Positions 2,615 through 24,051 of a DNA stretch of 37,117 nt are shown one piece after another. Position 1 is the stretch's first letter. Each line of letters begins with the position of its first letter. Made by a program: the position numbers and the translations under genes. The notes under the pieces were generated by a model, which saw only the letters and a program-made list of their open reading frames with translations, ran no database searches and had not been told where the DNA came from. Source of the stretch: Thermoplasmata archaeon (lineage in GTDB: Archaea > Thermoplasmatota > Penumbrarchaeia > JAEHCK01); contig JAEHCK010000035.1 of NCBI GenBank assembly GCA_020696345.1, positions 1 through 37,117 of the forward strand, given 5' to 3'.

Positions 2615-2647
2615 ATTGCTGATGAGTGAGATAGTCCGGTAGAATTA

Positions 2648-3052
2648 TTGCTTGACAGTGGCCGAGATGAGTTATTGATGGGTAGTAGCAGTGATGAGTT
2701 ATTGATTGACAGAAGCCGTGATGGATCGTTGATTGGCAGAAGCCTGGATTAGTTGTTTATTGGCAGATGCCTTGATCGATTATTGATTGACAGATACCTT
2801 GATCGATTATTGATTGACAGATGCCTTGATTAATTGTTGATTGACAGATGCCGGGATTAATTGTTGATTGACAGATGCCGGAATTAATTGTTGATTGATA
2901 GATGCCGGGATTAATTGTTGATTGACAGATGCCGGGATTAATTGTTGATTGACAGATACCTGGATGAATTAGCGAATGACAGATGCCATGATGAGTTATT
3001 GATTGATAGATGCCTGGATGAATTATCGATTAATTGAAACCTAGTTTTAAAG
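2648..3052 (+). repeat. 27-bp tandem array, left arm (about 15 units)
   Basis: Units of 27 bp follow each other without spacers from 2648, with a core TTGATTGACAGATGCC and a tail (G/T)GGATTAATTG. The central units (2810-2944) are nearly identical and the outer ones are diverged, as in arrays that grow by slippage or unequal exchange. The array begins 34 bp after the stop of the GvpD-like gene. It is related to the array at 3072-3314 in inverted orientation: the two unit consensuses match at about 17 of 27 positions when one is reverse-complemented. Confidence 0.9.
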
Positions 3053-3071
3053 ACAAATCCTGGAATCAACT

Positions 3072-3314
3072 CAGTATCAACCCAGCACGGTATCTGTTCA
3101 GCATCAACCCAGCACGGTATCTGTTCAGCATCAACCCAGCACGGTATCTGTTCAGCATCAACCCAGCACGGTATCTGTTCAGCACCAACCCAGCCCGGTA
3201 TCTGTTCAGCATCAACCCAGCCCGGTATCTGTTCAGCATCAACCCAGCCCGGTATCTACTCAGCATCAACTAATCCTGGTTTCTGTTCAACATCAATCAA
3301 TCTCTGTCTTGTTT
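3072..3314 (-). repeat. 27-bp tandem array, right arm, inverted (about 9 units)
   Basis: Eight clear units of 27 bp run from 3072 (plus-strand core ATCAACCCAGCACGGTATCT); a ninth degenerate one (3288-3314) overlaps the last codons of the minus-strand STAND ATPase gene, which stops at 3297. Units 1-4 have CCAGCACGG and units 5-7 CCAGCCCGG, a sign of local homogenisation. Because 27 is a multiple of three, the array is open in several frames (repeating INPARYLFS on the plus strand), but nothing indicates translation. With the left arm it forms a large inverted structure filling the gap between two convergent genes. Confidence 0.9.
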
Positions 3315-5966
3315 CAATTTTAATTTATCTGATCTCAAAACATTTTCTATGTTTTTGATCCTGATCTTGGCATTCATTTCCTTGAATATTTTTAATGAAA
3401 ACTCCAGACGTTTTTTCGCGTCATCATAATCCCCTTTACTGAACAACATCAGACCGTACTCCATGTATGAAGAACTGAATTCGAACGGCACATTTAACCG
3501 TTTTAATTGTTTAATACTCTTAGTAAAATATTTTTCAGATGTTTTCCAATCTTCTTTGAAATGGAAAATGATCCCGTAATTCCGAGATACGAGGCCTAAA
3601 CCTACTCGATCGTTGACCTGGGTTAGGATCTCTTCGGCAGCCTTACATCGTTCCATTGCTTTATCAAATTGGTTCATTCTAGCATAACATTCCGCAGTGT
3701 ATAACAATGCCCAGCCGCGATTATAAAAATCGCCTATCTTTATAGATAACTGATCACATTTTTTAAAATGCTTGATCGCTTCCAACCAATTCTCCTGTTT
3801 TGCATATATTTCGCCCAAACCGTTAAACGCCCTACCCATTTCATGAATCCAACCGATCTTTTCAAGGTGCCCTATACTTTCATTATAAAACTTAACAGCT
3901 TTATCCCAATCTCCCGTGTAATTATATATATTGCCCATATCTATGTAAGTGACTGCAATGACTGGAATGTCATTAATTTTTGTGGCGAAATCTATGCATA
4001 TATCATAATGTTCCAAAGCCTTCGAATAATCACCTTGGCGCCATTCCAGATACCCACGACCCCATTCGGTCTTTGCTAAACCGTGATAATCATCGATCTC
4101 TTGGGAGATTATCAAACTCTTTTTATAATTCTTTTCTGCTGATTTCCAATCACTTTTAAATGCCATCAATTCTCCCAAATTACGGTATGTGTCTGCAAGC
4201 TTGAGTTGTATCCAATTAGTTGATATTTCCTCTTTTTTCGACTTCTTTTCATTTACCTTTTTCTGCATTTCATTGCGAAGTTTCTCCACCAAATTCGGTA
4301 TGGGTCGCAAATATTCTAACGCCTGGTCCCAATCACCCAACATTTTATTTGTTTGCCCAAGATTGCTCAATAATTCGATCTCATTACGTTGAATTTGTAT
4401 TGTATATCTAAATTTATTCAATATTTCCAAGGCGGTCAGATAATACCTTCGAGCATCATCAAGCGCATAAATGCTGGTGGCATGCTTACCAGCCAACATC
4501 AGATATTTCAAGGCTTTATCATGATCCGTACCCTTTGAAAAATGGTCGGCAAGGTCAAAAACCAGATTACCTAAACTCTCCTGGTTCTGTTTCTCAATTA
4601 AAGTACCTACTTTTGTATGTAAAAATTTGCGACGACTACGGTTTAGATCCTGATATGCAATTTCTTGGATCAACGGGTTATCATATCTATATACATCAAT
4701 ATCAGATGATAGATCCTCGTGGATCAATTTCGCATCCAGTAGTGCGTCGAGCGAGTCAAGTATCTGCTCATCTGGAAATTCGGTAACCTCTTTTAACATA
4801 TCATACGAGAACTCTCGACCGATTACCGCGGCATAGCCCAACACCTTCAGATCCTCTTTTTTCAGCCGTCTGAGACGTGCGATCAGTCTCTCACGTGTAG
4901 TGGTTGGTATAATCAAATCTTTAACATCTAATCGTGGTTGCCAGACATAGCTCGAAACATCGATGACATCCTCTTCGATCAGTGCCTGGAGCACATCTTC
5001 GATAAATAGTGGATTCCCTTCGGTTTTTTGATATATCTGGTTTATGAAGTTTTCTGCAATGTCTTCCCTAGAAAAGATATTCTGGAGCATTAAATTTACA
5101 TTCTCTATTGCAAAGCGTTCCAAGGTGATAGCCGTAAAAAATTCAAAATGGTTCAATCTCTGGATCATTTTATCAATTTTTTCTTTTTTTTCAATTGAGA
5201 CATCAAGTTCCTCGGGACAAATTCCAAATATTAACATAATAGGTAGATCAGGTATCTGATCGATAAGATAATCAAGGAAATCTAAAGTGGCACCACTTGC
5301 CCAATGCAGATCGTCGATAAAGAATACAACCGGTGAATTCTGGGCCAATTGGAATAATTGTTTGCCCATAGCCTTAAATAAATTTGCCTGCCCCTTTTTT
5401 ATTTCACCAACTTCCGTAACTCTAAGCGTCGCAGGTATCAGGCCCATGGGTAATGCTTCCACCACCGGCGGTTCAGATGTTGGTGGTTCGAACTCATTCG
5501 TTAATGATATCTCTTCCTCGGTATCTGTGCCAACGAACGGAATTAGACCTAATGGTTTCGGTTGAATATTTGTGTCAATATTATTAAGTTCTGGATCTAA
5601 ACTATTGTTAATTCCATTATTTTGATCCTGTGATGAAGTATCCAATTCTCTAATTCCTGAACGTTCTTCGGGAGTTTCTAGCTTGGATGACATTTGTAAA
5701 TTGTAATCCAAAGCTTCGATTATGGACTGATATGGAGAATGGCTTTCCGTGCTTTTACAACTGCCTATACGAACCTGGACTTTCTCGGTCTCTGCGAATT
5801 TCATGAATTCTTCTATCAATCTGGTTTTACCGATACCATGCTCTCCATTGATCACAACGACCTGTCCTTTTGTATTACGCATTCTAGTGAGCAGGTCTTT
5901 TAGAATGGTCAGTTCTCTCTCACGATCGATAAATACGTGTTTGACTCTGTAGTCTCGAACCACCAT
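3297..5966 (-). CDS. STAND-type AAA ATPase with TPR repeats
   Basis: An 889-aa cytoplasmic protein of the AAA_16/MalT-like class, in which ATP binding and TPR-mediated ligand sensing are coupled. Walker A is GEHGIGKT (41-48) and Walker B is VVFFIDD followed by LHWA (213-223). Between them is an unusually long, Asn/Glu/Pro-rich insert (about 91-190) holding two short GLIP motifs (GLIPFVG and GLIPA). A winged-helix-like segment follows, then about eight TPRs over roughly residues 480-870 (repeated GD/A-KALEHY patterns). GGAG lies 7 bases before the ATG. The C-terminal residues (KQDRD) are encoded inside the flanking 27-bp repeat. Likely a signalling or regulatory switch; no effector domain is visible. 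The 24052-27045 gene is a paralogue. Confidence 0.8.
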   Translation of the reverse strand: MVVRDYRVKHVFIDRERELTILKDLLTRMRNTKGQVVVINGEHGIGKTRLIEEFMKFAETEKVQVRIGSCKSTESHSPYQSIIEALDYNLQMSSKLETPEERSGIRELDTSSQDQNNGINNSLDPELNNIDTNIQPKPLGLIPFVGTDTEEEISLTNEFEPPTSEPPVVEALPMGLIPATLRVTEVGEIKKGQANLFKAMGKQLFQLAQNSPVVFFIDDLHWASGATLDFLDYLIDQIPDLPIMLIFGICPEELDVSIEKKEKIDKMIQRLNHFEFFTAITLERFAIENVNLMLQNIFSREDIAENFINQIYQKTEGNPLFIEDVLQALIEEDVIDVSSYVWQPRLDVKDLIIPTTTRERLIARLRRLKKEDLKVLGYAAVIGREFSYDMLKEVTEFPDEQILDSLDALLDAKLIHEDLSSDIDVYRYDNPLIQEIAYQDLNRSRRKFLHTKVGTLIEKQNQESLGNLVFDLADHFSKGTDHDKALKYLMLAGKHATSIYALDDARRYYLTALEILNKFRYTIQIQRNEIELLSNLGQTNKMLGDWDQALEYLRPIPNLVEKLRNEMQKKVNEKKSKKEEISTNWIQLKLADTYRNLGELMAFKSDWKSAEKNYKKSLIISQEIDDYHGLAKTEWGRGYLEWRQGDYSKALEHYDICIDFATKINDIPVIAVTYIDMGNIYNYTGDWDKAVKFYNESIGHLEKIGWIHEMGRAFNGLGEIYAKQENWLEAIKHFKKCDQLSIKIGDFYNRGWALLYTAECYARMNQFDKAMERCKAAEEILTQVNDRVGLGLVSRNYGIIFHFKEDWKTSEKYFTKSIKQLKRLNVPFEFSSSYMEYGLMLFSKGDYDDAKKRLEFSLKIFKEMNAKIRIKNIENVLRSDKLKLKQDRD

Positions 5967-6199
5967 GGTAATTCTCCGACTTATGTGAAGGCATTATCTT
6001 TTCAAAAAATTGGTTAAGAGTTATTAACATTTTCCATAGATACAGATATTATTAAGCTTTTCGCAACCATATGTTTAATATTATCTTTGAAATGCGCCCG
6101 GTTATACATTAAAGGTCACCTTAAATTACACCATTTACTGGCAATTACCGGTATATCCGAAAAATTATTAAGTCTATTATCTATTATATCTCCGATATT
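5967..6199. promoter_or_regulatory. Divergent promoter region with a small palindrome
   Basis: This 233-bp gap separates the divergent STAND ATPase and the unknown-radB-cupin operon and must contain both promoters. A perfect 11-base palindrome AAGGTCACCTT (6112-6122) lies inside a longer imperfect one and could be an operator. An AAAAATTATTAAGT tract at about 6160-6173 is a plausible BRE/TATA for the 6200 gene. No tandem array is present here, unlike the convergent gaps. Confidence 0.35.
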
Positions 6200-7423
6200 A
6201 TGTCACCATCAACTAATTCGAATATGCCATTATCCAGAGAAGATCTGATCAAATTAAAGCATTCGATCGAGCCTAACGATTATCAGGTTGTAGCGGCGGG
6301 AAATTCCAATCTTCTGGTGATAAGGTCGCCACAAGAATATCCAGATATCGTAAATGATCTGGAAAGTTTGATCAATAAATTCGATATGCGTGATGTTGAT
6401 CAAGCCGATCAAGTTTGTATAATTGGTGATGCAGAGGTGGTGGGTGTGTCGATCGAGGCGATCAAATCATTAATGGACCGTAGAATAGAAGATGATGAGC
6501 AAATCGCCACAGATCTTGAAGAAAAATTGAGTGAACCTTATGATACTTTATCATTTCATAGTGACGACGACCCATTTAAGATACTAAGACTTGGCATTCG
6601 AATACCTGGTAGTCTGGAGGATTTTAAACCACAACAATTGCGGGAGACATTATTCTCAAAAATAAAGGACCTTCCTCGTGAAAGCGAGATTGTATATTTA
6701 ATTGCAAAAGATGGCTACCTTAGATTATCGGGAAAAGAATTTTATAAATACCTAGGCGATTTTCTTCGTGAGCATTCAGATAAGAACAGAGAAATGAAAG
6801 ATGAATTCTTAGATATTGCCAAGGGTACATTAGCCAACCATTTTGTCGGTAAAGGGCCGGAAACAGAAATTAGCATCACCGGTAAACAGGAGCAATTAAA
6901 CAACTATCTGGACGTGCCAGAACGTTCAATTGAAGTTGAAAACACCGAGGATATTAAGAAAAAGATCGAAGTTGATGGCGCGAAGGAAATTGCAGCTCTG
7001 TTGCAATTAGAGCAAGAGACTGCTATTCAAATACCCGAACCTGAACCGGCGTTAACTTCTGTTGAACCTAAGCCCATATCATCGCCGGAGATAAAATTGG
7101 AAACAAAATTGGAGAGCAAATTATCAGAGAGTGGTTTTCAGATAGTTTCCGGTATAATGCTCTCCGGTGTGGATGTAGTGGCAAATACCCAGGAAAATGT
7201 GGATAAAAAATTATTTTTCAGTTTTATGCCACAATTCGACTTTAGAAAAGCATTGGCCCTGGAAAAAGCGATAGAGCAACATACTCCCGGGCTGGGTATA
7301 ATAATCGGTTCCAAAGATGATGTGGATACGAAACTGTTCGTTATTGGTAAAAATATAGTATTAACGGATATTGATACCATACTTAACACTGATTTTCTTA
7401 ATCGTCCCGAGGACCAACAATGA
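6200..7423 (+). CDS. Unknown 407-aa protein upstream of radB
   Basis: I do not recognise this family. It is a soluble, acidic protein with no signal peptide or membrane segment. An N-terminal alpha/beta region (about 1-220) is followed by a low-complexity Glu/Pro-rich linker (about 270-310) and a C-terminal alpha/beta domain (about 315-405) that starts QIVSGIMLSGVD and resembles a small ligand- or protein-binding fold. No P-loop or metal site is visible. Its last codons overlap the radB start in an ATGA junction (4 bp), so translation is probably coupled and a role with RadB is a reasonable guess. Start is the first ATG after a TATA-like tract; there is no clear ribosome binding site, so the mRNA may be leaderless. 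Confidence 0.75.
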   Translation: MSPSTNSNMPLSREDLIKLKHSIEPNDYQVVAAGNSNLLVIRSPQEYPDIVNDLESLINKFDMRDVDQADQVCIIGDAEVVGVSIEAIKSLMDRRIEDDEQIATDLEEKLSEPYDTLSFHSDDDPFKILRLGIRIPGSLEDFKPQQLRETLFSKIKDLPRESEIVYLIAKDGYLRLSGKEFYKYLGDFLREHSDKNREMKDEFLDIAKGTLANHFVGKGPETEISITGKQEQLNNYLDVPERSIEVENTEDIKKKIEVDGAKEIAALLQLEQETAIQIPEPEPALTSVEPKPISSPEIKLETKLESKLSESGFQIVSGIMLSGVDVVANTQENVDKKLFFSFMPQFDFRKALALEKAIEQHTPGLGIIIGSKDDVDTKLFVIGKNIVLTDIDTILNTDFLNRPEDQQ

Positions 7424-8097
7424 AGCTTAAGATCAATTGTACTAGCCTGGACGATCTATTGGGCGGCGGTATCGAGGCGGGTGCGGTTACCGAATTATAT
7501 GGTGAGGGTGGCACTGGGAAGACCAATATCTCCCTTCAGTTAACACGTAACAGTGTTCTGTCCGGAAAAAAGGTAATATTCATAGATACCGAGGGCGTGT
7601 CACATGAGAGGTTTCGCCAAATATGCGGTAAAGACCATGGAGATATCAATAAAGAGGTATTATTTTTCTCGCCGTTCTCACTATCCGAACAAGAGTCCAT
7701 GGTCCAGCAGGCAGTGAAGATCTTGGAAAGCGATAGCGATCCAAACATTGGCCTGATCGTACTGGATTCTGCCACCATATTTTACCGCATGTCGCTGGGT
7801 TGCGAGGATGAACAGGCACACCGCCAGTGTTTATCACGGCAGATAATATTACTTCTGGCTGCTGCGCGTAAATATGATCTTCCAGTGGTCATCACGAACC
7901 AGGTGTTCATGGATATCGAAAACGATACCGTCGCACCGATCGGCGGGCACATATTACTGCATAACGCTAAGACAATAATTAAACTGGAAAGAGTAACTGA
8001 TAACGTACGCCGTGCTACGCTTATGAAACATCGTTCGTTGGCCGAAGGTTTGTACTCGGAGTTTAAGATCACTGGTAATGGGATCGAGGATGTATAA
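7420..8097 (+). CDS. radB: DNA repair and recombination protein RadB
   Basis: A 225-aa RecA/RadA paralogue of the RadB family, which in euryarchaea assists RadA in homologous recombination and binds DNA. The protein is just a RecA core: it lacks the N-terminal helix-hairpin-helix domain of RadA, as RadB proteins do. The start LDDLLGGGIEAG leads into Walker A GEGGTGKT (28-35); the Walker B strand is LIVLDS (about 113-118), and VVITNQV and PIGGHILLHNAKTIIKL are the L2 and C-terminal core motifs. It overlaps the upstream unknown gene by 4 bp and is followed directly by the cupin start (TAA then ATG), so the three are probably one operon. Confidence 0.95.
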   Translation: MKLKINCTSLDDLLGGGIEAGAVTELYGEGGTGKTNISLQLTRNSVLSGKKVIFIDTEGVSHERFRQICGKDHGDINKEVLFFSPFSLSEQESMVQQAVKILESDSDPNIGLIVLDSATIFYRMSLGCEDEQAHRQCLSRQIILLLAAARKYDLPVVITNQVFMDIENDTVAPIGGHILLHNAKTIIKLERVTDNVRRATLMKHRSLAEGLYSEFKITGNGIEDV

Positions 8098-8442
8098 ATG
8101 GATAAAGAATTTGGACAGTCAAGCTTAATTGATGTAAAAAGAATAGTTAATGATTGCAAAGAAAAATGGATCAATTATAATCTAACGGAAGTTAATGAGT
8201 GTATTGTTCGACTCGGTATTGTCGAAGGAGAATTTCATTGGCATAAACACGATTCCGAAGATGAATTCTTCTTTGTAATCGAAGGTAAACTATTACTTGA
8301 TCTGGAAAATGAAACAATAGAATTATCACCATGGCAAGGTTATACTGTGCCCAGGAAAATTGTTCATCGAACAAGAGCTAAACAAAGAACAGTAATGTTA
8401 ATGTTTGAAAAAAGTACAGTAGATCCAAAAGGAGATAAATAA
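8098..8442 (+). CDS. Small single-domain cupin
   Basis: A 114-aa protein with the two cupin motifs. Motif 1 is HWHKHDSEDEFFFVIEG (HxH and Glu metal ligands, then Gly) and motif 2 is PWQGYTVPRKIVHRT, with a histidine as fourth ligand. Small cupins of this type bind a divalent metal and act as sugar-phosphate isomerases, oxygenases or sensors; the reaction cannot be assigned here. The start codon begins at the base after the radB stop, so it is almost surely co-translated with radB. It is the last gene of the operon and is followed 14 bp later by the 8-bp-periodic hairpin element. Confidence 0.85.
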   Translation: MDKEFGQSSLIDVKRIVNDCKEKWINYNLTEVNECIVRLGIVEGEFHWHKHDSEDEFFFVIEGKLLLDLENETIELSPWQGYTVPRKIVHRTRAKQRTVMLMFEKSTVDPKGDK

Positions 8443-8456
8443 TAGGATGTAGGATG

Positions 8457-8600
8457 GTCGGAAGGTCAGTTAGTCGATCAGTCAACTAGTCAGCTGGTCA
8501 ACTAGTTAACTAGCAGACCGATTGACCGACAGACCGGTAGACCAGCAGACCGGTGGTCTATACCTCAACACCAATTTTTCCATCACTCACAAATATTATT
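8457..8600 (+). repeat. 8-bp-periodic hairpin element, copy 1 (short)
   Basis: From 8457, seven consecutive octamers begin GTC (one GTT); the series then passes through GTTAAC (8505-8510) and continues as octamers carrying GAC on the same strand to about 8560. Read on the other strand the right half is again GTC octamers (for example GTCTGCTG), so the whole folds into one imperfect hairpin centred on GTTAAC. A non-repetitive tail follows (CTCAACACC and CCATCAC at 8564-8587) that recurs beside copy 2. The element fills the gap between the convergent cupin and kinase-like genes. Confidence 0.85.
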
Positions 8601-8611
8601 TCATGATAGAA

Positions 8612-10354
8612 TTATACCGATGTATGACCGGGAGCGGCTTTTTGATCTCTGGTTTTGACAGGGTTTCGTCTGATGAACCAGTGCTCTAATGTAGAATTTA
8701 TTTCACCAAATAAGGGTATTCTCCTACCAAACCCGGAAAGGATACTATTTAACAATAACCAAAATATCTCGCGTTGACGATGATACATCTGAAACGGGAA
8801 CGCCATGATGCCAATTTTTGGTATTGCCCCAACTATCAATGCGGTACCAATTTTCATCTTATTTCCCTTTAACCGTTCTTGTACCCATAGAATTATCGTG
8901 GCCAGAACTCTCAACGAGGGCATAACGAGCATGAATAGAAGAGGCACCCAACTTTGTGTTACCAAGACTCCAAAGATCGAAATGGTATTGAAATAAATGG
9001 AAAATGGTTTAAGAAACAGGTGGTAGCCGAAACCGCGTATATATGCCGATGAATCCCTGGTGCCATCTCTTAAAGTTTCCTTCTCTCGTGTGGTTAACCG
9101 GCCTAATGAATCGAATTCTCTGGTCTTTTCATTTATATAAAAAATTCCGAACTCCTTATACTTTGCTCGTGTTCTTTGATGGATGATCCAGAAATGAAGT
9201 TCTTTGAACGCTAATTTGCTAAGAATAATATTGGTGACCACGTTGTTTCTGTATCCTATCGGGATACGACCCATTTGCTCCATGTTTCTAAATTTATTTT
9301 CCAACCAACGTTTACGATATCGGTCGTTAATGACAAGATATATTAGGTCCGCAAAGATCAAGAAAAGCAATAACTGAACCATTGAATTGCGAATTCTCAT
9401 CTCGGTTCTTGTTGAAATATTATATTCTTTTTTCCATGTGCAAATGTACTGTTCGGTTATGTTTATTTTGTGATCTCGTTCATCGCTATTTGCAGAACTG
9501 GTTTTAGTTCGATCTCTGAACAATGCCAATTCGCTCTCTTTCCAGGCATGCATGCAATACTGTAACTTTGTTATATTCGCCTTTAGTGAAGGATATTTCG
9601 CAAGTATATCTTGATATCGTTCAATATATTTCCATAACTTATCAAAATCGATATCACCAAATAACGGTGAAAATCCTTTTTTCTTTGCTTCCGTAATATA
9701 TGGCTTATTTTTGAAGAATTGGATCCCGGGCATGCCGGACTCGAGGTCGATCCAGATCCATTCGTTTTTGTGGTTAAGTAAATAATTGCTGGTAGGCACA
9801 CTCAAGGATTTATCGGCCTGCCACATGGGTCCATAGAGCCCTGCATCAAACAGGTGTTCCATGAGTTTGTCCATGAAAGCCGTGAGTTCGAAGATCTCGT
9901 ATGTCGAGAATCTCAAATTCGGATCTGGTCCGCGGCCACTTATAAATTCCGTTCCTAATACCCAACAGCAATCTAACCGATCCCATCGTATATATTTTGC
10001 TTCGGCCACCTTGGGCGAACCAAACCAAAATGCTGTCAGATCTCTTATAACTGCCCGGGTATAATACGCAGCTGCTACTGCATTTATGTTCGTCCTATAT
10101 GGTAACGGCGCCTGATAGGCCAATTTATATAATCCTCTGGTGAAAATGTTACATTGAACAAAGCGTTTCTCAGCTGTCAATTCACCATCTTTATTTTTTA
10201 TCAACTCTACTACTGCGGCCTTACCCCTCCCAAGTGACCTGATGTATTCGATATCGTTTGAATCCTGTAATATAATTGCATCCAACATTCCTTTTTCGTT
10301 GTTGAATGTTTGCGTTTTGATCCCTTGTATCATTTCATCTACTCTTGCGCACAA
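8612..10354 (-). CDS. Kinase-like membrane protein, family unknown
   Basis: A 580-aa protein I cannot place in a named family. Residues 41-65 resemble a kinase nucleotide-binding loop (LGRGKAAVVEL, then AEKRF with a candidate lysine). Around residues 178-207, WQADKSLSVPTSNYLL followed by WIWIDLESG resembles the catalytic-loop and metal-binding segments of ABC1/aminoglycoside-kinase-like enzymes, but the usual His-x-Asp is QAD. The C-terminal half has about four hydrophobic helices (near 327-344, 455-500 and 506-527) separated by basic loops. So it may be a membrane-anchored atypical kinase or a pseudokinase. The longest frame starts TTG at 10354; ATG at 10333 is equally plausible, since a TATA box sits 26 bp upstream of 10354. 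Confidence 0.65.
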   Translation of the reverse strand: MCARVDEMIQGIKTQTFNNEKGMLDAIILQDSNDIEYIRSLGRGKAAVVELIKNKDGELTAEKRFVQCNIFTRGLYKLAYQAPLPYRTNINAVAAAYYTRAVIRDLTAFWFGSPKVAEAKYIRWDRLDCCWVLGTEFISGRGPDPNLRFSTYEIFELTAFMDKLMEHLFDAGLYGPMWQADKSLSVPTSNYLLNHKNEWIWIDLESGMPGIQFFKNKPYITEAKKKGFSPLFGDIDFDKLWKYIERYQDILAKYPSLKANITKLQYCMHAWKESELALFRDRTKTSSANSDERDHKINITEQYICTWKKEYNISTRTEMRIRNSMVQLLLFLIFADLIYLVINDRYRKRWLENKFRNMEQMGRIPIGYRNNVVTNIILSKLAFKELHFWIIHQRTRAKYKEFGIFYINEKTREFDSLGRLTTREKETLRDGTRDSSAYIRGFGYHLFLKPFSIYFNTISIFGVLVTQSWVPLLFMLVMPSLRVLATIILWVQERLKGNKMKIGTALIVGAIPKIGIMAFPFQMYHRQREIFWLLLNSILSGFGRRIPLFGEINSTLEHWFIRRNPVKTRDQKAAPGHTSV

Positions 10355-10375
10355 ATCGGAAGCCCCTAAGCTATT

Positions 10376-10385
10376 GTATAATAAA
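10376..10385 (-). promoter_or_regulatory. TATA box of the kinase-like gene
   Basis: On the minus strand TTTATTATAC is centred about 26 bases upstream of 10354. This predicts transcription starting at or next to the TTG codon, so translation would be either leaderless from TTG or start at ATG 10333 after a leader of about 20 bases. Confidence 0.5.
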
Positions 10386-10427
10386 TTAAACAGCTAAATT
10401 GATGAGAGTATAATAAAGTTTTTGAAT

Positions 10428-10841: not shown

Positions 10842-10842
10842 T

Positions 10843-12012: not shown

Positions 12013-12037
12013 AGATCTCACCTTGTAATTTTTATTA

Positions 12038-15849: not shown

Positions 15850-15881
15850 TATTATTTATTAATACAGCAAAACGGCACAAA

Positions 15882-16101: not shown

Positions 16102-19100
16102 ATGAAAGAGAGTGACAGAAAGGCTAAATTGTTAAAGGTTTTTATATTGGTCAGTGTTTTGATCGTGAGCGGGTTAGGTATGACTATGACCCTTGGTTCG
16201 ACATTAAACGAGTCTGAAACCGGGTCGAACTCGATGATGTATGCAAGTGCCACCGATGTAGATTCTAGAGATGTAGGCGTATCCGAGTCGCGTGGCGAGG
16301 CAAGGCAGGGCGTAAAAGTGGAGATCGTGCCACCACCAACTACTACACTCGTTTTTGTTGGCCAGCAGGATTTTGACTTCGATGTTCAACTGAAGTCAGT
16401 ATTTGAAGATGATGATGATGACCAGAATGGCGATAACGTACTATACGATGTCGAGATAACCGGGACCGATGCGGGTATAACCGGAGATAACCTTAAGAAA
16501 TATGATTATACAAAGCGCGATTTCGTAAATGTGACCACGCCTGTATTTACCTGGGCCTCAAAACGGATAGCACCCAATAGCACTAATAAAAGCGCGTATT
16601 TCTTGTACAACACAAGCGATCCGGCAAAACCATATAAATATATTACAAATTATACTGATAATTATACTAATACTTATCTTGACCGAAATAATAGTGGAAC
16701 TATAGACGTTGAAGAATATTGGCCCATTTTGGATGGTGCAAAAACATTTGGCAATTTCAATTTTGATGTATTGCCCGATGTGCCACCGGGATATTATCGG
16801 ATGAAATTCAAAGTATCCTATAAATACCAGATATGGCAGGATGTAAATACTACATGCATGGGCAACGGTGCAGGTCCGGTTTTACCTGATGGTTCATTGA
16901 CCACCAATGAGGCCTTGGGGCCATTTAAATATTATTTCTGGTATCCAATAGATACCAGTGATGGTCAAGCGATTCAACCATCAGGTAAAAACCTAACTAC
17001 AGTGTGGGGTGGTGGTACTGGAACTTTAGGGTATGCAAAAAAATTGAACTATATTGAATGTACGGACCAAATAAGTTGGGAAGGATTACAAGATGATGGT
17101 GTGGACCTGCCTGATAATTATTTTGATTTTGATAATGATGGCTATACAACCTGGATGCCCGGTGACCCCGATGCAAATATGGGTGCAATATCCACTGATT
17201 TTGATACTAAAATTCGCCAGAATTTCCCCACTCCACGCGAGATCGACCAACCTGATGCAGATGGTAATTTAAATGCCAATCAAGGTAATGGTACCTGGAC
17301 ATATTCAGGTTACATGAATAGGACCGACCCGGCCATTTGGGGCGACACGATCTTACATACCGAAGATGTATGGTTTGATTTCATTATTAATTCAACCATT
17401 GTTCCGGAAGAGGATCTGAACGAAGATAACATCACTGGTAATGACTTGAAGTTGGCCGCAGTAGATGATGATTACTTTACTGGAAGCACTTTTGAGGAAT
17501 TCTTTGTTCAATTAACCAATGCACACCCGACCCTGGAGATGCGCGATGTAGAGGCCCGGCTGGTATTGCCAAATGTGAGCCCGGGTGGATTTTTATTATA
17601 TGCCGACCATGATACCACAACCATCAAGCAGATCGACTCCAACGATAAGGTCAACATGAGTTTTCGTATCTCGGTTGACAAGGCAACACCGCCAGGGTTT
17701 TATTATGGGCAACTTGTGCTGGAATATACAATGCGTTACCCCAGCGGTGAAGTCGACCCCCTGGGTGTGCCATTTACAACAAACGTACGAATAACAGAAG
17801 ATCATTGGGTGGTCCAGTTCAAAGTTGATTTTACGCCGGACATGGGCGATGCCTCCGTCAAACTTGCTTCACCAGGTCTGGCTGTGCGTGCTGCACCATC
17901 CACAGAGATCGACACCAGCACGGGCCGGCAGATGTTCAATTTCACCGTGAAGAACACGGGTAATGTGAAGCTGTACGGTGGTGATATGCCCGAAGGAAAC
18001 CTATATCTGGACTACGCGGAGTTCGAGCAATCGGGTGAAGGTTTCTATGACTCCGATGCTGACCCCGGTGTCGAACTCGTGCCTATTTCGATCGATGAGT
18101 TAGATATTGGTGCTTCTGTATCAACGCCCATTCCAGTTACAATTCCCAATCATTGGTACTTGCCTGAGGGTAAATACCGTTTGTACTTGGACTTCAAAGG
18201 ATTTTATTATAATAACGGCGCATTAGGCAACGCATCAGGTTTCTCGTACATGGAGATGAATTGGGTAGGTATAGACGACGATGACCAGCCGCGAAATTGT
18301 TTTGTACTGCTCGATACGAACGGCAACGACAGCGTAAATGATCTTGACGACTCGATCCGTGAGACCGAAGGAATTTACACGGATATATACATAAAACAGT
18401 TTGACCCAACCACTAAAGAGCTAGCCATTGTGGATTACTCGCCAATTTCGTTGAACCAGGAGGATCTGGAGGGTGGTGGGTATGATTTCTCGGTAACATT
18501 CCAGAACCAGCAGTCGTTCATTATGCACAATGTGGATGTGGAGATCGATATCGATGGCTACTTTGACGAGAGTAATTATTATGACTGGACATACGTAACC
18601 CGTAGACCCAACCCCAAGTTCCATATAGACGAACTCAACCCGATAGTGGCTAATGGAACCTGGACCGTGGACTTTGTCATAGATGACCTGGATAAACTGC
18701 TGCCGGAGGGTGAGCATCATATACCAATTAAATATTCTTATGACTATGAGGTTCCCGGTATAGAAGATATGACAACATACAGTATAATCTGGGATACCTC
18801 AGCATCGCCATTTGTTCCGTATATAGATGCAAATGCAAATTTCATGTTGAACAAAGCTATTGGTGGGACACGCGCATCTGTAAATGCCATGGACATCATT
18901 TTCGTAGTGGATGTATCCAACTATGCAAGTAATACATATTATACCCGCTTAAGTAATACAATTGACGGGTTCGTCAATGATCTGATGCTGGATAGTATAG
19001 ATTACCAGCTCGGTCTTGTGGCATTCCGTGATCACTCCTGGCTCGTACAAGATCTCACAACTGATGGCGACGATATAAAGAATGGACTAGTCGGCCTGAC

Positions 19101-21030
19101 GCGGACAACCTGGAACTGTGGTGTCTATGATGCAGTAACTGAAACCATTTCTAATACTTTGACCGCTGGTGGCACAATATCTTATAGGCAGGGCGCAACC
19201 AAGGTAATTGTTTTACTAACTGATTATTTCCCGAACGAAGGAGCCAATAGTGAATTGTCATTTGGTCTGGCAGTGAAAGGTGAGGCCATTTTATTTACGA
19301 TTATCGATGTGGGTTCATATTCGGGATGGTATGATGAGACCGTTGGTGCAACCGGTGGCCAGATGTATAACGTATTAGATACGGATTATTCCCCGTTCAC
19401 ATCTTCGATGCTAAATGATATAAAAGCATATATCGTAGGTGTCACGGCTGCGGGTGTTTTGATCTATGATGTGCCATTGCGAGATGTGGCAGATCCTAAC
19501 ACCGTGGACATTGATACATACGGGCCTTATCTGGTGGTCGAGGTAATTGACTCCGAATTGGACATAGATGCGGAAGATCTAACCGCACCAGCCATTTCAC
19601 TTGGCGGCAGGATACGGGATGTTAATGTTAGGATTCGCTTGACCAATCAAGAAAATGTACAATATACGGATATAGAGGTCGGGCTTCCTGTTATATCTGC
19701 CAATAAGAACCAGACCGTATTTACCAGGGAATGTGACCCAATAAATTCATCAGAGAATTTTGTGGGGGTTCTAACTAGTACTACATTGGGGCCAAAAGGC
19801 GGGTTCATTGATGCAACATTTAATGTGGATATAAACACAGACATCGAAACCGGGATACATAGATTTGAATTGGTATTCAAAGGTATGAATGACTATACCA
19901 AACTACCGGTTGAAAGCACTATCCCCGTCGCCATCCGGATCTATCCCGGACAACCCATTTTGATCATCCCACAAATAAATGAACAGACTGGTGAGCCCGG
20001 TGTCGTTGTTGGGAATGTCGAACCTGGAAAGGAATTCTCACTCACTTTTACCTTACTGAACACAGGTGGTGATGATGCCAGGGAGATATATGTGACATTG
20101 AGTAACGATTGGTATGATGATGACCCGTTCACCACCATTGATACATTTGTAACAAGCGTTTCTTCGTACGGTACAGAAACTACATATTATAATAACGGCA
20201 ATTTGCGAAGTCTTAATACATCTCGTAAGGCCAATACAAAATTGAGTGACATTGGGATCTCTGACACATCAGATATCATTAATGTTGAGCGCAAACTTTT
20301 GGCGCCTACCGCAGTGGTTCCAAGATTTTACATTAAAGAGATCAAGGCCGGTGAATCATATAATGTGACATTCAAATTAAAAGCAGATATACATATGGTA
20401 GTAGGCAGACCATATAGTGAACATATCTTATTGGAATATATCGACTCTACCGGTTTGGTATTCCGGTACGATGAGACAAATCCGGAACTGTCAACCAAAC
20501 CATTGCCTGTCATAGTCTATACAAAAAAGAGTGGTGAATTGCAGATCGAAAAGGAAGGTTTGGCTAACGAGACTTATGCTGCAATTATAATGGCGGTTAT
20601 ACTAATAATATTGGTCCTTTTGCTCATAGGTTCCAGATTTCAAAAGCGAAAGATGAAAGGGGCGGGTGAAGGTGATGATGAAAGTGAACCGGAAGCATTT
20701 GACGAAGACGAAGAACTGGAAGAAGACGAAGATGATGAGCTACCATTACCCGATGACTATGATGAAGAGCTCGAAGAAGAGCTCCCCGAAGACCTGAGAG
20801 ATGAAGAAGAAACAGAAGGTGGCCCAGAATCTGATGAGCCTGAAGATGAAGATCAAGATGAACCTTCCGACCGTGACCGTGATAATGATTGGGACTTTGA
20901 TGATTCAGAGAAGGAAAACGAGAGAGGGTCTGAAGACGAAGAGAAAAAACCGGCAAAGGGCAGAGGCAAAGATAAGGGTAAGATGCCGGATAAAGACAAA
21001 GGCAAAGACGATGATGTTGAAGACTGGTAG
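16102..21030 (+). CDS. Large surface protein with vWA domain and acidic cytoplasmic tail
   Basis: A 1642-aa exported, membrane-anchored protein. ATG 16102 is chosen because AAGGAGG (16085-16091) sits 10 bases upstream; the frame is open to TTG 16078. A signal/anchor (LLKVFILVSVLIVSGLGMTM) is followed by many beta-sandwich repeats of the CARDB/NEW3 kind (phrases such as FTVKNTGNVKLYGG, DFSVTFQNQQSFIMHNVDVEI and TFTLLNTGGDDAREIYVTL). A vWA domain lies at about 930-1110 (MDIIFVVDVSNYAS); its MIDAS motif is DVSNY, one residue short of DxSxS. A single C-terminal helix (about 1490-1512, IIMAVILIILVLLLI) precedes a 130-residue tail that is mostly Asp/Glu and ends Lys-rich. Likely an S-layer-associated or adhesive protein; partner unknown. 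Confidence 0.8.
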   Translation: MKESDRKAKLLKVFILVSVLIVSGLGMTMTLGSTLNESETGSNSMMYASATDVDSRDVGVSESRGEARQGVKVEIVPPPTTTLVFVGQQDFDFDVQLKSVFEDDDDDQNGDNVLYDVEITGTDAGITGDNLKKYDYTKRDFVNVTTPVFTWASKRIAPNSTNKSAYFLYNTSDPAKPYKYITNYTDNYTNTYLDRNNSGTIDVEEYWPILDGAKTFGNFNFDVLPDVPPGYYRMKFKVSYKYQIWQDVNTTCMGNGAGPVLPDGSLTTNEALGPFKYYFWYPIDTSDGQAIQPSGKNLTTVWGGGTGTLGYAKKLNYIECTDQISWEGLQDDGVDLPDNYFDFDNDGYTTWMPGDPDANMGAISTDFDTKIRQNFPTPREIDQPDADGNLNANQGNGTWTYSGYMNRTDPAIWGDTILHTEDVWFDFIINSTIVPEEDLNEDNITGNDLKLAAVDDDYFTGSTFEEFFVQLTNAHPTLEMRDVEARLVLPNVSPGGFLLYADHDTTTIKQIDSNDKVNMSFRISVDKATPPGFYYGQLVLEYTMRYPSGEVDPLGVPFTTNVRITEDHWVVQFKVDFTPDMGDASVKLASPGLAVRAAPSTEIDTSTGRQMFNFTVKNTGNVKLYGGDMPEGNLYLDYAEFEQSGEGFYDSDADPGVELVPISIDELDIGASVSTPIPVTIPNHWYLPEGKYRLYLDFKGFYYNNGALGNASGFSYMEMNWVGIDDDDQPRNCFVLLDTNGNDSVNDLDDSIRETEGIYTDIYIKQFDPTTKELAIVDYSPISLNQEDLEGGGYDFSVTFQNQQSFIMHNVDVEIDIDGYFDESNYYDWTYVTRRPNPKFHIDELNPIVANGTWTVDFVIDDLDKLLPEGEHHIPIKYSYDYEVPGIEDMTTYSIIWDTSASPFVPYIDANANFMLNKAIGGTRASVNAMDIIFVVDVSNYASNTYYTRLSNTIDGFVNDLMLDSIDYQLGLVAFRDHSWLVQDLTTDGDDIKNGLVGLTRTTWNCGVYDAVTETISNTLTAGGTISYRQGATKVIVLLTDYFPNEGANSELSFGLAVKGEAILFTIIDVGSYSGWYDETVGATGGQMYNVLDTDYSPFTSSMLNDIKAYIVGVTAAGVLIYDVPLRDVADPNTVDIDTYGPYLVVEVIDSELDIDAEDLTAPAISLGGRIRDVNVRIRLTNQENVQYTDIEVGLPVISANKNQTVFTRECDPINSSENFVGVLTSTTLGPKGGFIDATFNVDINTDIETGIHRFELVFKGMNDYTKLPVESTIPVAIRIYPGQPILIIPQINEQTGEPGVVVGNVEPGKEFSLTFTLLNTGGDDAREIYVTLSNDWYDDDPFTTIDTFVTSVSSYGTETTYYNNGNLRSLNTSRKANTKLSDIGISDTSDIINVERKLLAPTAVVPRFYIKEIKAGESYNVTFKLKADIHMVVGRPYSEHILLEYIDSTGLVFRYDETNPELSTKPLPVIVYTKKSGELQIEKEGLANETYAAIIMAVILIILVLLLIGSRFQKRKMKGAGEGDDESEPEAFDEDEELEEDEDDELPLPDDYDEELEEELPEDLRDEEETEGGPESDEPEDEDQDEPSDRDRDNDWDFDDSEKENERGSEDEEKKPAKGRGKDKGKMPDKDKGKDDDVEDW

Positions 21031-21086
21031 AGTAGATATAAAAATTTAAAATTGCTTTAAAGATGGGCAGTTGAATTAATCTCTGG

Positions 21087-21343
21087 TATGTCGGGATGTT
21101 GTATATGTCGTAGGGATATCAGGATGTTCTATATATCGTTGAGATGACAGGATGTTCTATATGTCGTTGGGATGGCAAGATGTTCTATATAGCGCTGGGA
21201 TAGCAGAATGTTCTAAATGTCGAAGATATAACAGGATGCATAAATGAATTAACGAGAATAAATCACACATCCTGATAATTAATCACAAAATAGAACATGC
21301 TAGTAATTAATCGAAATATAGAACATCCTAATAACAAATCGCT
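21087..21343. repeat. 28-bp tandem array with inverted right arm
   Basis: Left arm (21087-21240): about six units of 28 bp ending in GATGTTCTATAT (core TCGTTGGGATGGCA, drifting). Right arm (21264-21343): about three units of the complement (ATAGAACATCCTAATAA and ATAGAACATGCTAGTAA), also with 28-bp spacing. Thus the unit changes strand at about 21250 and the array can fold back on itself. It fills the gap between the convergent vWA surface protein and MATE genes. At 21385-21425 there is also a 20-bp imperfect direct repeat (ACCCCTGAATTGTAAC and ACCCCTAATTACAAC). The remaining bases of the gap are AT-rich without a gene. Confidence 0.85.
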
Positions 21344-21450
21344 AAATTCCCCATTCCCGAAAAATTTTAACACTGCTTATTTCTGACCCCTGAATTGTAA
21401 CCCCCGACCCCTAATTACAACTCCCATAACTTTCGACAAATAAGCGTTAG

Positions 21451-22908
21451 TTAATCCATTTTACACCCCTCTTGCAAGTGACTTCGATTGTTTTTATCTT
21501 TTTTGAAAGAGGATCTTAGACCTTTGATAAAAACCATTGCCCAGATGAATGCCGCCATAGAACCAATAATGTTGGCTATGACCATCCCGATCCAGATGCC
21601 CAGAATGCCCATGTTCATGTAAATTGCAAATGCTAAGGCCAACGGTGGTGCTAATATTAATGTTCGAAAAACCGTAACGAGGAGCGATTTCGTCCCCTCA
21701 CTTGTTCCTTGGAACATGGCAGAAGAGAACATACCAAATGCCACACCAGGGTAAAATAGACAAATAACTCGTAAGAATAATATGAGATCATCGGCAATCC
21801 GTGTCGAACCTTCTCCAGTGATAAACACTGCCGTGATCTGGGGTGCGAAAATAAAAGTTATGGCTCCAGCTATAGTTGAAATTATTAAACCCAACTTGAT
21901 CGAATAAAAATACGAAGTTTTGAGTTTATCAATGTTCTTTGCACCGAAAGCCGCACCAGTTACCGATGTTACCGCAGTTGCAACTCCGATCAACGGTAAT
22001 ATCGCAACGGTAACTACACGCCAACCGATCGTAAATACGGCCACCCCGTCTTTACCCGCTATTAATATGAGTATAATATTCATGATCAACATGGTAAATG
22101 CCATAGACACCTGCATCACTGAGGCGGGTACACCTACCTTTGAAATATCCTTCATGATCTCTCTATCCCATTTAAATGACCGGAAATTGAAAGAGATATA
22201 GGTATCTTTTTTAATGAACAGCCAATAAAAAACTATCAAAGAGGCGATGGTCATCGAGATCATGGTAGCCCATGCTGCCCCGGCAACACCCAGTCCAAAT
22301 GTATATATGAAAATGGGGTCCAGAAATATATTTAAAATTGCACCAAACATCATGATCCACATGGCTCTCTTTACATCACCTTCTGCCCTGAGAATAGATG
22401 TTGCGATCATGGAGAAAAAGATTATTATGGTTCCTGCAAACATGATCCTTGAATAGGCCATGACAAGATCGATAAGCTCGCCAGCACCTATAAGATAAAA
22501 TATGTTTTCTGCAAAAATTAGAAATGGTACTGTAAATAAAATTGCAGTAATAACCATCAAAATAATGGTATGAACCGCAACCTTATCTGCCCCGACTTTG
22601 TCCTTTGCACCAATTCGCCTCGAAATAGCTGCGCCGCCACCAATACCAAGACCTGTGGAGATCGCCATAGCCATGAAAAAGAACGGGAAAAAGAAACCGA
22701 TCGATGCGATTGCGTCCGGGCCCAAACCCGAGACCCAAATGGCATCAACCAAGTTGTAAATAGTGTGGGCCGCCATGGCAATTATCATTGGCCAGGCGAG
22801 TTTATTTATGGCCTTTTTCGGATCGCCAAGAAGTGTTCTCACACCTTCAGGCTGTTTTGAAGAAAAGGGCTTTGGTTCTCTATTTTTTTTTGGTTTTGAC
22901 CGGTTCAT
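21451..22908 (-). CDS. MATE family multidrug/cation antiporter
   Basis: A 485-aa polytopic membrane protein (about 12 helices) of the MATE family, which exports cationic compounds in exchange for sodium or protons. The motif AWPMIIAMAAHTIYNLVDAIWVSG in the first helix and GLGIGGGAAISRRIGAKDK in the second loop are characteristic, and the two halves repeat the pattern (GVATAVTSVTGAAFGAKN). The open frame extends to 22938; ATG 22908 (MNRSKPKK) is preferred because TTATTATTAA at about 22940-22949 would be the TATA box and would place transcription start after 22938. The substrate cannot be inferred. Confidence 0.9.
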   Translation of the reverse strand: MNRSKPKKNREPKPFSSKQPEGVRTLLGDPKKAINKLAWPMIIAMAAHTIYNLVDAIWVSGLGPDAIASIGFFFPFFFMAMAISTGLGIGGGAAISRRIGAKDKVGADKVAVHTIILMVITAILFTVPFLIFAENIFYLIGAGELIDLVMAYSRIMFAGTIIIFFSMIATSILRAEGDVKRAMWIMMFGAILNIFLDPIFIYTFGLGVAGAAWATMISMTIASLIVFYWLFIKKDTYISFNFRSFKWDREIMKDISKVGVPASVMQVSMAFTMLIMNIILILIAGKDGVAVFTIGWRVVTVAILPLIGVATAVTSVTGAAFGAKNIDKLKTSYFYSIKLGLIISTIAGAITFIFAPQITAVFITGEGSTRIADDLILFLRVICLFYPGVAFGMFSSAMFQGTSEGTKSLLVTVFRTLILAPPLALAFAIYMNMGILGIWIGMVIANIIGSMAAFIWAMVFIKGLRSSFKKDKNNRSHLQEGCKMD

Positions 22909-22946
22909 GCAATCACACTGAATTAATTGGATTATCATTTAATAAT

Positions 22947-22991
22947 AAAAAAATGCTTCGCAAAAAGAGTAATGATTGACACATTTTTTTT
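22947..22991 (+). repeat. 45-bp A-run/T-run element, copy 3
   Basis: Begins AAAAAAATGCTTCGCAAAA and ends ACATTTTTTTT. The length is conserved but the middle has diverged from copies 1 and 2. It occupies the promoter region between the divergent MATE gene and the small proline-rich gene, and its A/T-run ends may serve as their TATA regions. The sequence after it (AAAGTTAAAT) also resembles that after copy 1 (AAGTTAAAT). Confidence 0.6.
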
Positions 22992-23071
22992 AAAGTTAAA
23001 TATGAATGATATTACAAAAACTTTTTTTATAAGAATATTGTTTACAGGCACAGAAAAGGGAGGTGGAATTC

Positions 23072-23419
23072 ATGCCAGGACCAGGAAAAATAATATTTAT
23101 TGAGCCAGATGGAAAAACGATCACCGTTGATTGTGCACAGATACCATATCCGGGGGACCCGCCGACAGAAATAATAATTCCCCAAGTGACCCGCAGCCCA
23201 CCAAACGCTGCCACACCGTATGATCATTTGCATGTGCCCGTAAGTGCGGATAATTCTCCGCCAACACCAAACGACCTGCAAATTAAACTTTTAGAACCAT
23301 TACCACCGCATGGTCAACTTGGTAAAATGATGCTTCCATATAACGGCGGCCCGGCAAATACCGTGTCGATAAAGATAGATGATGGAAGTTCAGGTGACGC
23401 AGGTACCCCAGATCAATAA
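23072..23419 (+). CDS. Small proline-rich orphan protein
   Basis: A 115-aa protein I do not recognise. ATG 23072 is preceded by a strong Shine-Dalgarno, GGGAGGTG (23058-23065), at 6 bases; an in-frame GTG at 23063 lies inside that site and is rejected. It is acidic and rich in Pro, Gly and Asp, with beta-strand-like stretches (GKIIFIEPDGKTITVD and NTVSIKIDDGSS) and a conserved-looking DHLHVPV segment. It has no signal peptide, membrane helix or Cys pair (one Cys). Codon use matches its neighbours. It stands alone between two repeat-filled gaps, and the MITE-like element begins 24 bp after its stop. Confidence 0.7.
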   Translation: MPGPGKIIFIEPDGKTITVDCAQIPYPGDPPTEIIIPQVTRSPPNAATPYDHLHVPVSADNSPPTPNDLQIKLLEPLPPHGQLGKMMLPYNGGPANTVSIKIDDGSSGDAGTPDQ

Positions 23420-23442
23420 TATCAATAATAAATAGATAAAAG

Positions 23443-23714
23443 GTATTTGTTTAGCCAAATCCTAAATTCGAATTTCTAAATTCACACAAAAATAGGATTT
23501 ATTATTGAGTTTGCACTATTTTTCTTGAAGCTTGGAATTCCTTTTTTAAGTAATAATTAATATGGAATTCCAACCCTCTAAACAATTTCTAAATCCTAAA
23601 TCACACAATTTTCCAAACCAGTTAAGTGTTTGAAATTTGAAAGTTTAAAATTTGTTTAGGATTTCGGATTTCGCACTTCGAATTTGTATGGGATTTTGTT
23701 AACTAAACAAATAC
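23443..23714. mobile_element. MITE-like element, 272 bp, with TIRs and 8-bp TSD
   Basis: The ends are perfect 12-bp terminal inverted repeats: GTATTTGTTTAG at 23443-23454 and CTAAACAAATAC at 23703-23714. They are flanked by an exact 8-bp direct repeat GATAAAAG at 23435-23442 and 23715-23722, the expected target-site duplication. Inside the ends an imperfect inverted relation continues (CAAATCCTAAATTCGAA against the complement of TTCGAATTTG...GGATTTTG). No transposase or other frame is encoded, so it would be a non-autonomous element moved by a transposase elsewhere in the genome. It lies just downstream of the small proline-rich gene. Confidence 0.8.
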
Positions 23715-23781
23715 GATAAAAGATATAATCTTAATCGTAGTATTATCTTAATTGACTGCACTTTTGCGTTTTGATTGGATT

Positions 23782-24015
23782 GTCGACTGGTCAGCTAGTC
23801 GATCAGTCAGCTAGTCGACCGGTCGGCCAGTCGGCTGGTCAACTAGTCGGCCAGTCAGGTAGTCACTTGGTCGACTAGATGACTGATAGACCGATTGACC
23901 GGCAGACCGATTGACCGGTAGACTAACGGACTAGCAGACCGATAGACCAATGGACTGGCAGACTGGTGGACCACATCTCAACACCCATAATTCCATCACC
24001 ATTAGCTCAATATTT
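23782..24015 (+). repeat. 8-bp-periodic hairpin element, copy 2 (long)
   Basis: Twelve octamers beginning GTC (GTCGACTG, GTCAGCTA, GTCGATCA and so on) run from 23782 to 23877. The series turns at about 23878-23885 and continues as eleven octamers carrying GAC to 23973. On the opposite strand these are again GTC octamers, so the halves form a long imperfect hairpin of roughly 90 bp per arm. The tail (CTCAACACCCATAATTCCATCAC, 23977-23999 in two parts) matches that of copy 1 at 8564-8587. The element ends about 40 bp before the stop of the convergent STAND ATPase gene. Confidence 0.85.
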
Positions 24016-24051
24016 GAAAACGCAAAACTTCAATTAATTGATATAAGGTCT

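Follow-up and report, generated by a model that had tools for sequence, protein, structure and literature searches.

The tandem arrays between converging genes in the window, a 37,117-nucleotide stretch of a Thermoplasmata archaeon (assembly GCA_020696345.1, contig JAEHCK010000035.1, analysed over its whole length), are in our judgement likely to be the cores of dispersed short repeat elements, i.e. non-autonomous Foldback-like MITEs. They were probably not purpose-built as signals at gene ends. The assignment to mobile-element cores is likely because the array in the fourth convergent gap keeps matching ends and a duplicated target site. What had appeared as four 'palindromic satellites' thereby becomes one testable class.

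Array anatomy in the four convergent gaps

Independent gene calling recovered the same four tail-to-tail gene pairs that the preliminary description had named; Pfam gives no match for one partner of a convergent pair, the 118-aa gene located at 23063-23419. TRF confirmed an orientation-reversing tandem array in each of the four gaps, with 27-bp units at 2642-3031 and reversed copies at 3071-3296 in gap 1, 8-bp units at 8480-8513 and 8512-8554 in gap 2, 28-bp units at 21094-21238 and reversed copies at 21267-21341 in gap 3, and units of 8, 16 and 24 bp from 23782 to 23973 in gap 4. The unit sequences had been thought to differ from gap to gap. This is true of the 27-bp, 28-bp and 8-bp types, but the two 8-bp gaps hold one common family and carry the same conserved right flank, CAACACC.AT..TTCCATCAC. 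There are therefore three unit families, A (27 bp), B (28 bp) and C (8 bp).

Gap 1 contains a family A arm of subtype A1 on the + strand (2642..3046), built from 27-bp units ..TTGATTGACAGATGCC.., and a reversed arm of subtype A2 (GGGTTGATGCTGAACAGATACC..) on the - strand (3057..3299), both defined by TRF, PWM arms and subtype consensus. The centre between them (3047..3056) reads ATTGAAACCTAGTTTTAAAGACAAATCCTGGAATCAAC together with 14 bp of each arm. Centres of the same type are found on other contigs at C257:57045 and C26:9177, and a longer version at C129:19494. The A2 arm runs into the stop codon of the gene at 3297-5966. The family C element of gap 2, an 8-bp inverted array with approximate bounds 8450..8590 from TRF and flank comparison, is probably decayed: the conserved right flank persists as a remnant from 8566, and no TIR was detected at this element in the TIR scan of the sample. 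In gap 3 a + strand arm of five B1 units (GGATGTTCTATATGTCG + TTGGGATAACA, 21094..21233) and a reversed - strand B2 arm (GGATGTTCTATATTTCG + ATTAATTATTA, 21273..21328), both assigned by subtype consensus, enclose the conserved 39-bp centre of family B (GGATGCATAAATGAATTAACGAGAATAAATCACACATCC, 21234..21272).

Among the four gaps of the window, complete ends with a target duplication are seen in gap 4 only, while for gaps 1-3 it is the family of the array that suggests membership of such an element. Reading along the + strand, the gap-4 element comprises the left target duplication TTAATTGA (23748..23755), the left terminal repeat CTGCACTTTTGCGTTTT (23756..23772), the family C inverted array identified by TRF with AGTCGACT-type and then GACCGATT-type units (23781..23972), a conserved right subterminal segment CAACACCCATAATTCCATCACCATTAGCTC... 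that is present beside B arrays too (23979..24016), the right terminal repeat AAAACGCAAAACTTCAA (24017..24033) and the right target duplication TTAATTGA (24034..24041). The same gap holds a second MITE-like insert, which has no array (23443..23714, ends GTATTTGTTTAG / CTAAACAAATAC) and is flanked on the + strand by the target duplication GATAAAAG at 23435..23442 and 23715..23722.

Shared ends and three dispersed families

One pair of 17-bp ends, CTGCACTTTTGCGTTTT / AAAACGCAAAACTTCAA (end sequences also given as CTGCACTTTTGCG / CGCAAAACTTCAA), brackets many C, some B and few A arrays. Genome-wide, 44 left and 40 right ends were found with up to 1 mismatch, compared with none for reversed control patterns, and 26 pairs of ends lie 38-568 bp apart. 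Exact target duplications of 7-10 bp flank 13 of the 26 pairs, while shuffled pairing gives a mean of 0.86 and a maximum of 6 (5000 shuffles); in 13 of 26 an exact duplication of 7 bp or more is absent. By motif the paired ends enclose 17 C cores, 4 B cores and 1 A core, with none in 4 cases, one of which (C68:30567) carries an A arm in the arm scan. With up to 4 mismatches allowed, an end motif lies within 160 bp of 8/32 A (p=9e-4), 8/36 B (p=2e-3) and 20/44 C arrays (p=3e-11), compared to 21/366 control gaps; a recognised end within this distance is missing for most A (24/32) and B (28/36) elements. Judged by eye, A-type units come next after the left end at four loci (L189, L199, L205 and L220). 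For one B-core element (C15:1561-1954) a paralogous site without the insert exists, the match being off by a 6-bp gap at the junction. The TIRs and target duplications point to insertion, and the elements are short and multi-copy, as MITEs are.

The wider survey covered 1.52 Mb on 70 contigs of the same genome, in whose gaps we counted 32 elements of family A, 36 of B and 44 of C. These numbers exclude family F, a 32-bp type seen in 5 gaps, as well as 4 arms that fall within called genes and 17 that lie at the edges of contigs. Arms face each other in 74/75 two-armed gap elements (A 22/22, B 26/26, C 26/27), and two unit subtypes are paired within each element of B (26/26) and A (22/22). Fixed columns were used to score the subtypes in a later step, since the PWM run had joined the seeds A1, A2, D1, D2 and E in a single family of 27-28 bp. 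The B centre measures exactly 39 bp in 22/26 elements. Inverted arms with variable numbers of tandem units, the mark of Foldback-like elements, are thus found here.

Arm sizes range from 2 to 15 units and the two arm lengths of a B element are uncorrelated (r=0.08), as would be the case for local satellites in which palindromic seeds had grown independently in each gap through replication slippage. We nevertheless hold such an origin to be extremely unlikely, since identical units, two subtypes, the centre and their order recur at dozens of unlinked sites, which is unexpected from independent origins. We keep slippage as an explanation for changes in arm length; as the source of the arrays it is at odds with their common subtypes and centres. 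The 'repeated creation' of satellites proposed earlier is likewise not supported, the arrays being copies of three dispersed families with an invariant internal order.

Gene orientation and RNA folding

The preliminary description had found clean arrays in convergent gaps only. This is correct inside the window, but elsewhere A, B and C also occupy codirectional and divergent gaps. Considering gaps of 60 bp or more in the 1.52 Mb sample, an A, B or C arm is present in 29/102 convergent, 64/411 codirectional and 18/132 divergent gaps, an approximately twofold convergent excess (p=0.004 vs codirectional, p=0.008 vs divergent). Family A is the only one with a significant convergent excess by itself (14/102 vs 18/543 other gaps, p=1e-4); that of B (p=0.34) or C (p=1.0) is not significant. 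In codirectional gaps the arms lie nearer the upstream stop than the downstream start in 51/64 cases. TRF arrays of any kind, at a score of at least 50 and with a residual gap of at least 60, occur in 45/99 convergent, 101/400 codirectional and 36/132 divergent gaps (p=0.0001 and 0.005), and in a first subset of 42 contigs (869,094 bases) in 30/61, 57/229 and 18/80, respectively. Inverted array pairs were seen in 14/102 convergent, 24/411 codirectional and 11/132 divergent gaps of at least 60 bp on the 70 contigs, direct pairs in 2, 3 and 2. With a residual gap of at least 60, inverted pairs are enriched in convergent over codirectional gaps (12/99 vs 24/400, p=0.049), but not significantly over divergent ones (12/99 vs 11/132, p=0.38). 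An ungapped-stem score was dropped owing to its poor registration of 8-bp arrays.

These biases could be explained if the arrays were selected two-way 3'-end elements, whose hairpins in both converging transcripts end, protect or insulate the mRNAs. The convergent excess of arms, of family A and of TRF arrays in general, and the stop-proximal position of codirectional arms would fit. This is further supported by RNA folding of the + strand, where all four arrays beat dinucleotide shuffles, with z of -8.4 (20 shuffles), -3.3, -5.8 and -5.2 (200 shuffles each) for gaps 1 to 4. The 278-nt element of gap 4 folds into a branched structure rather than the single long hairpin expected. We nonetheless regard selected 3'-end elements as unlikely. 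The 3'-side bias exists, but a restriction to convergent gaps fails with 82/111 arm-bearing gaps being non-convergent. Moreover, B arms show no covariation, arms of the same element matching at 0.738 vs 0.739 for different elements (p=0.76), and the subtypes are kept different: throughout, the B1 consensus departs from that of B2 at about 7/28 positions, so that full arm pairing is not maintained. In A, arms of the same element match slightly better than those of different ones (0.591 vs 0.580, p=0.006), a result that descent of subfamilies would give as well. Selection for the hairpin is thus not supported for B, and Rfam gives no match in the window at the gathering threshold.

The MITE reading would explain the same bias through insertion. 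A transposase, not recognised here, would have moved the elements by their 17-bp ends, copies would have spread via transposition into A+T-rich sites, and replication slippage would afterwards have lengthened or shortened each arm independently. Inserts would persist mainly 3' of genes, where no promoter is broken. Such survival would account for the twofold convergent excess and make ordinary landing sites of the window's four gaps. The excess of family A (14/102 vs 18/543) may be stronger than promoter avoidance alone gives. A bolder version, in which an archaeal Foldback counterpart combines one terminal pair, three interchangeable inverted-repeat cores and hundreds of copies, the host having co-opted the A core to separate converging genes as a barrier that acts both ways at their 3' ends, has in our view a small chance of being correct.

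Possible mobilisation, distribution and relation to known systems

Searches of the assembly, which is in 272 contigs, with PF01609, PF00872 and PF12762 revealed no transposase gene lying between such ends: PF01609 gave 5 matches, none with such an end within about 1.5 kb, and PF00872 and PF12762 gave 0 each. Of the Mutator- and P-type transposases expected of Foldback-like elements, the search covered PF00872. No autonomous partner was recognised among multi-copy proteins (15 clusters, judged by eye) or between ends 0.7-5 kb apart, and the frames inside 5 of 21 unpaired ends look like ordinary genes (by eye, no family search). The 15 Y1_Tnp matches in the genome, 14 of them above the cut-off, would be consistent with a different mechanism, in which a Y1 (REP-associated) transposase mobilises REP/BIME-like palindromes in single-stranded form. 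Against this, an A, B or C arm lies within 2.5 kb of 1/5 sampled Y1 genes (3 of the five being close to a contig end) vs 36% of random sites, and the three Y1 loci L326-L328 contain no unit. To our knowledge, target duplications flanking TIRs are not expected of Y1 transposition, which also counts against this explanation. It is thereby weakened and we consider it highly improbable, even though REPs likewise pair head-to-head and tend to occur where neighbouring genes converge or run in one direction (PMC3733652).

This genome carries 18 exact copies of the left end, for which 291 other sampled genomes of the phylum gave no match, and the three arrays have no match in 11 other genomes of the class. 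The two-unit pattern of B gave 0 exact matches in genome_contigs and viral_contigs, the left end extended by 8 bases gave none in viral_contigs, and a relative (G001, 131 kb only) had a TRF array in 0/45 gaps. Among open-licence papers, none was found that describes inverted tandem cores in a MITE or Foldback element of an archaeon. If the MITE reading is true, a Foldback-type architecture known from eukaryotes occurs in an archaeon in high copy, with varied cores behind one set of ends. Such inserts can skew the picture that one gains of 3' gaps, and a hairpin between converging genes is not necessarily the outcome of selection for RNA function. The inserts also provide a natural set of arrays for measuring slippage, arm subtypes and promoter avoidance.

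The elements resemble several known systems. In Foldback (FB) elements, and in Tm1 of root-knot nematodes, the inverted arms consist of short tandem units in varying number and are unequal within one element; short asymmetric end motifs lie beyond the arms, and the target is duplicated, over 9 bp in Tm1 and about 8 bp here (PMC3169594). FB and Tm1 are eukaryotic, whereas the present host is an archaeon in which no transposase copy was found. The elements here also differ in that the arms of A and B have two distinct unit subtypes and that one set of ends is combined with three core families. BOX elements of Streptococcus pneumoniae and S. suis are modular prokaryotic repeats with MITE features, whose fixed ends with TIR and TSD surround a variable tandem array (PMC3049150). 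In S. suis different ends enclose the same boxB type, while here the same ends enclose different cores; the boxB array is tandem, with no reversal mentioned in the excerpt (PMC3049150), whereas the array here reverses. REP/BIME sequences are high-copy extragenic palindromes of 20-40 bp, arranged in opposite-orientation pairs mostly in convergent and unidirectional gaps and in some cases linked to tyrosine transposases (PMC3733652); in contrast, the elements here have long tandem arms, TIRs and target duplications and no Y1 linkage in the five genes tested. With prokaryotic MITEs in general they share a length under 600 bp, TIRs, target duplications and high copy number (PMC3733652, PMC3049150), but they differ by an interior made of an inverted tandem array, the type of which is interchangeable.

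Inverted arrays in the convergent gaps of the window

Every convergent gap of the window contains a tandem array that reverses its orientation (4/4), confirming the preliminary description. The gap at 2615-3296 carries 27-bp units (family A) and overlaps with its array the stop codon of the right neighbour gene. The gap at 21031-21450 carries 28-bp units (family B), and those at 8443-8611 and 23420-24051 share one 8-bp family (C) with the same right flank. On the + strand, RNA folding of these arrays is better than that of shuffled sequence. In the gap at 23420-24051 a 278-bp C element with TTAATTGA on either side directly follows another MITE-like insert, 272 bp long (23443-23714), which has the ends GTATTTGTTTAG / CTAAACAAATAC and an 8-bp duplication, GATAAAAG, on both sides; one further pair of these ends, without duplication, occurs in the genome sample. 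This gap thus consists mostly of inserted DNA. The neighbouring stretch 24052-27045 encodes a protein of 997 aa with DUF835, AAA_16 and TPR matches. A very long open frame (27438-37115, 3226 codons) continues past the contig end and includes a 243-bp repeat in 3.5 copies at 31559-32413.

Orientation of array-bearing gaps across the genome

The window is one entire contig (C145) of an archaeal assembly (4.97 Mb, 272 contigs, 91% complete, 6% contaminated). Among 80 loci kept, its Rad51-family protein has its closest relatives, at 54-55% identity, in assemblies that carry a Euryarchaeota or Thermoplasmatota label, which suggests that the genome belongs to the Thermoplasmatota. In a sample of 1,517,548 bases (70 contigs, window included) 1051 genes were called with a simple hexamer caller and the gaps between them were scored. 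At least one Y1 transposase gene (C42:4144-4497) escaped the caller, so that one listed gap is too long.

The proposed restriction of arrays to convergent gaps holds as a tendency but not as a rule beyond the window. In favour of the initial reading, convergent gaps hold a tandem array of whatever type more often (45/99) than codirectional (101/400) or divergent ones (36/132). Among gaps of at least 60 bp on the 70 contigs an A, B or C arm, that is, a run of units in one orientation, is present in 64/411 codirectional and 18/132 divergent as well as 29/102 convergent gaps. Taken singly, only family A shows a convergent enrichment (14/102, versus 12/411 codirectional and 6/132 divergent); B occupies 8 convergent, 24 codirectional and 4 divergent gaps, and C 7, 29 and 8. 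Given the rate of 28% among convergent gaps, occupation of all four in a single window is unusual (0.0065), but the pattern was noticed post hoc. Within codirectional gaps the arm lies nearer the upstream stop in 51 of 64 cases (median 68.5 bp versus 169.5 bp).

Further array families occur in gaps at C17:10272-10357, C33:14204-14260, C129:55731-55782 and C5:14167-14465, with units of 14 bp (AAAAGTTAAAAGCT, reverse AACTTTTAAAATTT), 16 bp (GTCGAGAGTCTAAAGA) and 32 bp (GGCTCTAATTTATTATTACTG). Once arrays are masked, 299 of the 645 sampled gaps of at least 60 bp have sequence in common with at least one other gap and fall partly into several large clusters, indicating that the intergenic DNA of this genome is full of other dispersed repeats.

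Common ends, target duplications and internal order

C arrays and some B arrays are set in a common frame, CTGCACTTTTGCGTTTTGATTGGATAGAATAATAATTTTAGTTCAACGAG... on the left and CAACACCCAT..TTCCATCACCATTAGCTC...GAAAACGCAAAACTTCAA on the right. Genome-wide, 44 left and 40 right ends are found at no more than one mismatch, and none with reversed controls. Exact copies of the left end, the one searched for across the phylum, number 18 in this genome and none in the 291 other genomes sampled. The sample, together with loci fetched with the ends, yielded 35 end pairs within 4 kb (at most 5 mismatches in sum), of which 28 were distinct, had full flanks and spanned no more than 700 bp; removal of one double count and one false pair left 26. 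In 13 of these 26 the ends are immediately flanked by an exact 7-10 bp duplication (shuffled mean 0.86, maximum 6). At fixed length, near-perfect duplications peak at 8 bp (10/28), with 4/28 at 7 bp and 0 or 1 of 28 at 5, 6 and 9-11 bp. By motif, the 26 cores are C (17), B (4), A (1) or none (4), and A-type cores, judged by eye, adjoin the same left end at four fetched loci (L189, L199, L205, L220). Among A and B elements, the majority showed no recognised end. One B-core element (C15:1561-1954) sits in a repeat whose other copy (C244:18783-18871) is continuous without it, save a 6-bp gap. Minimal 40-bp elements, in which a core is missing and the two ends almost abut, were seen at C244:70542-70581 and C271:49876-49915.

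Where both arms are present they are head-to-head in 22/22 A, 26/26 B and 26/27 C elements. These counts exclude gaps with arms in a single direction (10 A, 10 B, 17 C), as well as the 4 arms located within genes and the 17 located at contig edges. Two-armed B elements always join an arm of subtype B1 to one of B2 (26/26), across a centre of exactly 39 bp in 22/26, and two-armed A elements join A1 to A2 (22/22) around one of few centre types. Selection of the arrays as hairpins, as had been proposed, does not generalise: B arms match no better within than between elements in their core columns (p = 0.76), and B1 and B2 units, which have most of a 17-bp core in common, differ at about 6 of the remaining 11 positions, a divergence that speaks against selection for a perfect helix. 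The lengths of the two arms in B elements show no correlation (r = 0.08). Family A does show a slight within-element excess (p = 0.006), which could stem from subfamilies with different centres.

Proposed mobilisation and relation to known repeat elements

We read the arrays as non-autonomous, Foldback-like transposons, supported by their common ends, duplications, invariant internal order and dispersal. A transposase would act on them in trans, arms may change by slippage, and inserts would survive mainly away from promoters. Profile searches (PF01609, PF00872, PF12762) and inspection of frames at unpaired ends found no mobilising transposase. Y1 transposase matches occur at 15 places in the genome, three of them on C23, and the five Y1 genes in the sample show no linkage to A, B or C units. 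Two of five PF01609 transposase genes have a B array at a distance of up to about 1.5 kb (L221, 495-729; L225, 23-257), which may be chance, since an arm occurs within 2.5 kb of 36% of random sites.

Searches of 11 other genomes of the same class, the nearest level of relationship compared, gave no match to the A, B or C arrays at E 0.001, and exact matches to a two-unit B pattern are absent from a collection of 84,980 species, which may omit this genome and very near ones. In the literature searched we found no report of an archaeon in which a single set of ends encloses three types of inverted array core. REPs are found chiefly in gaps of the convergent and unidirectional classes (PMC3733652), so that a modest bias towards 3' sides is in keeping with known extragenic repeats; BOX elements have a variable tandem array between fixed ends, and in S. 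suis the same boxB type occurs within different ends (PMC3049150). Foldback elements including Tm1, whose duplication is 9 bp, have, like the present elements, inverted arms built of variable tandem units (PMC3169594). The initial observation stands.
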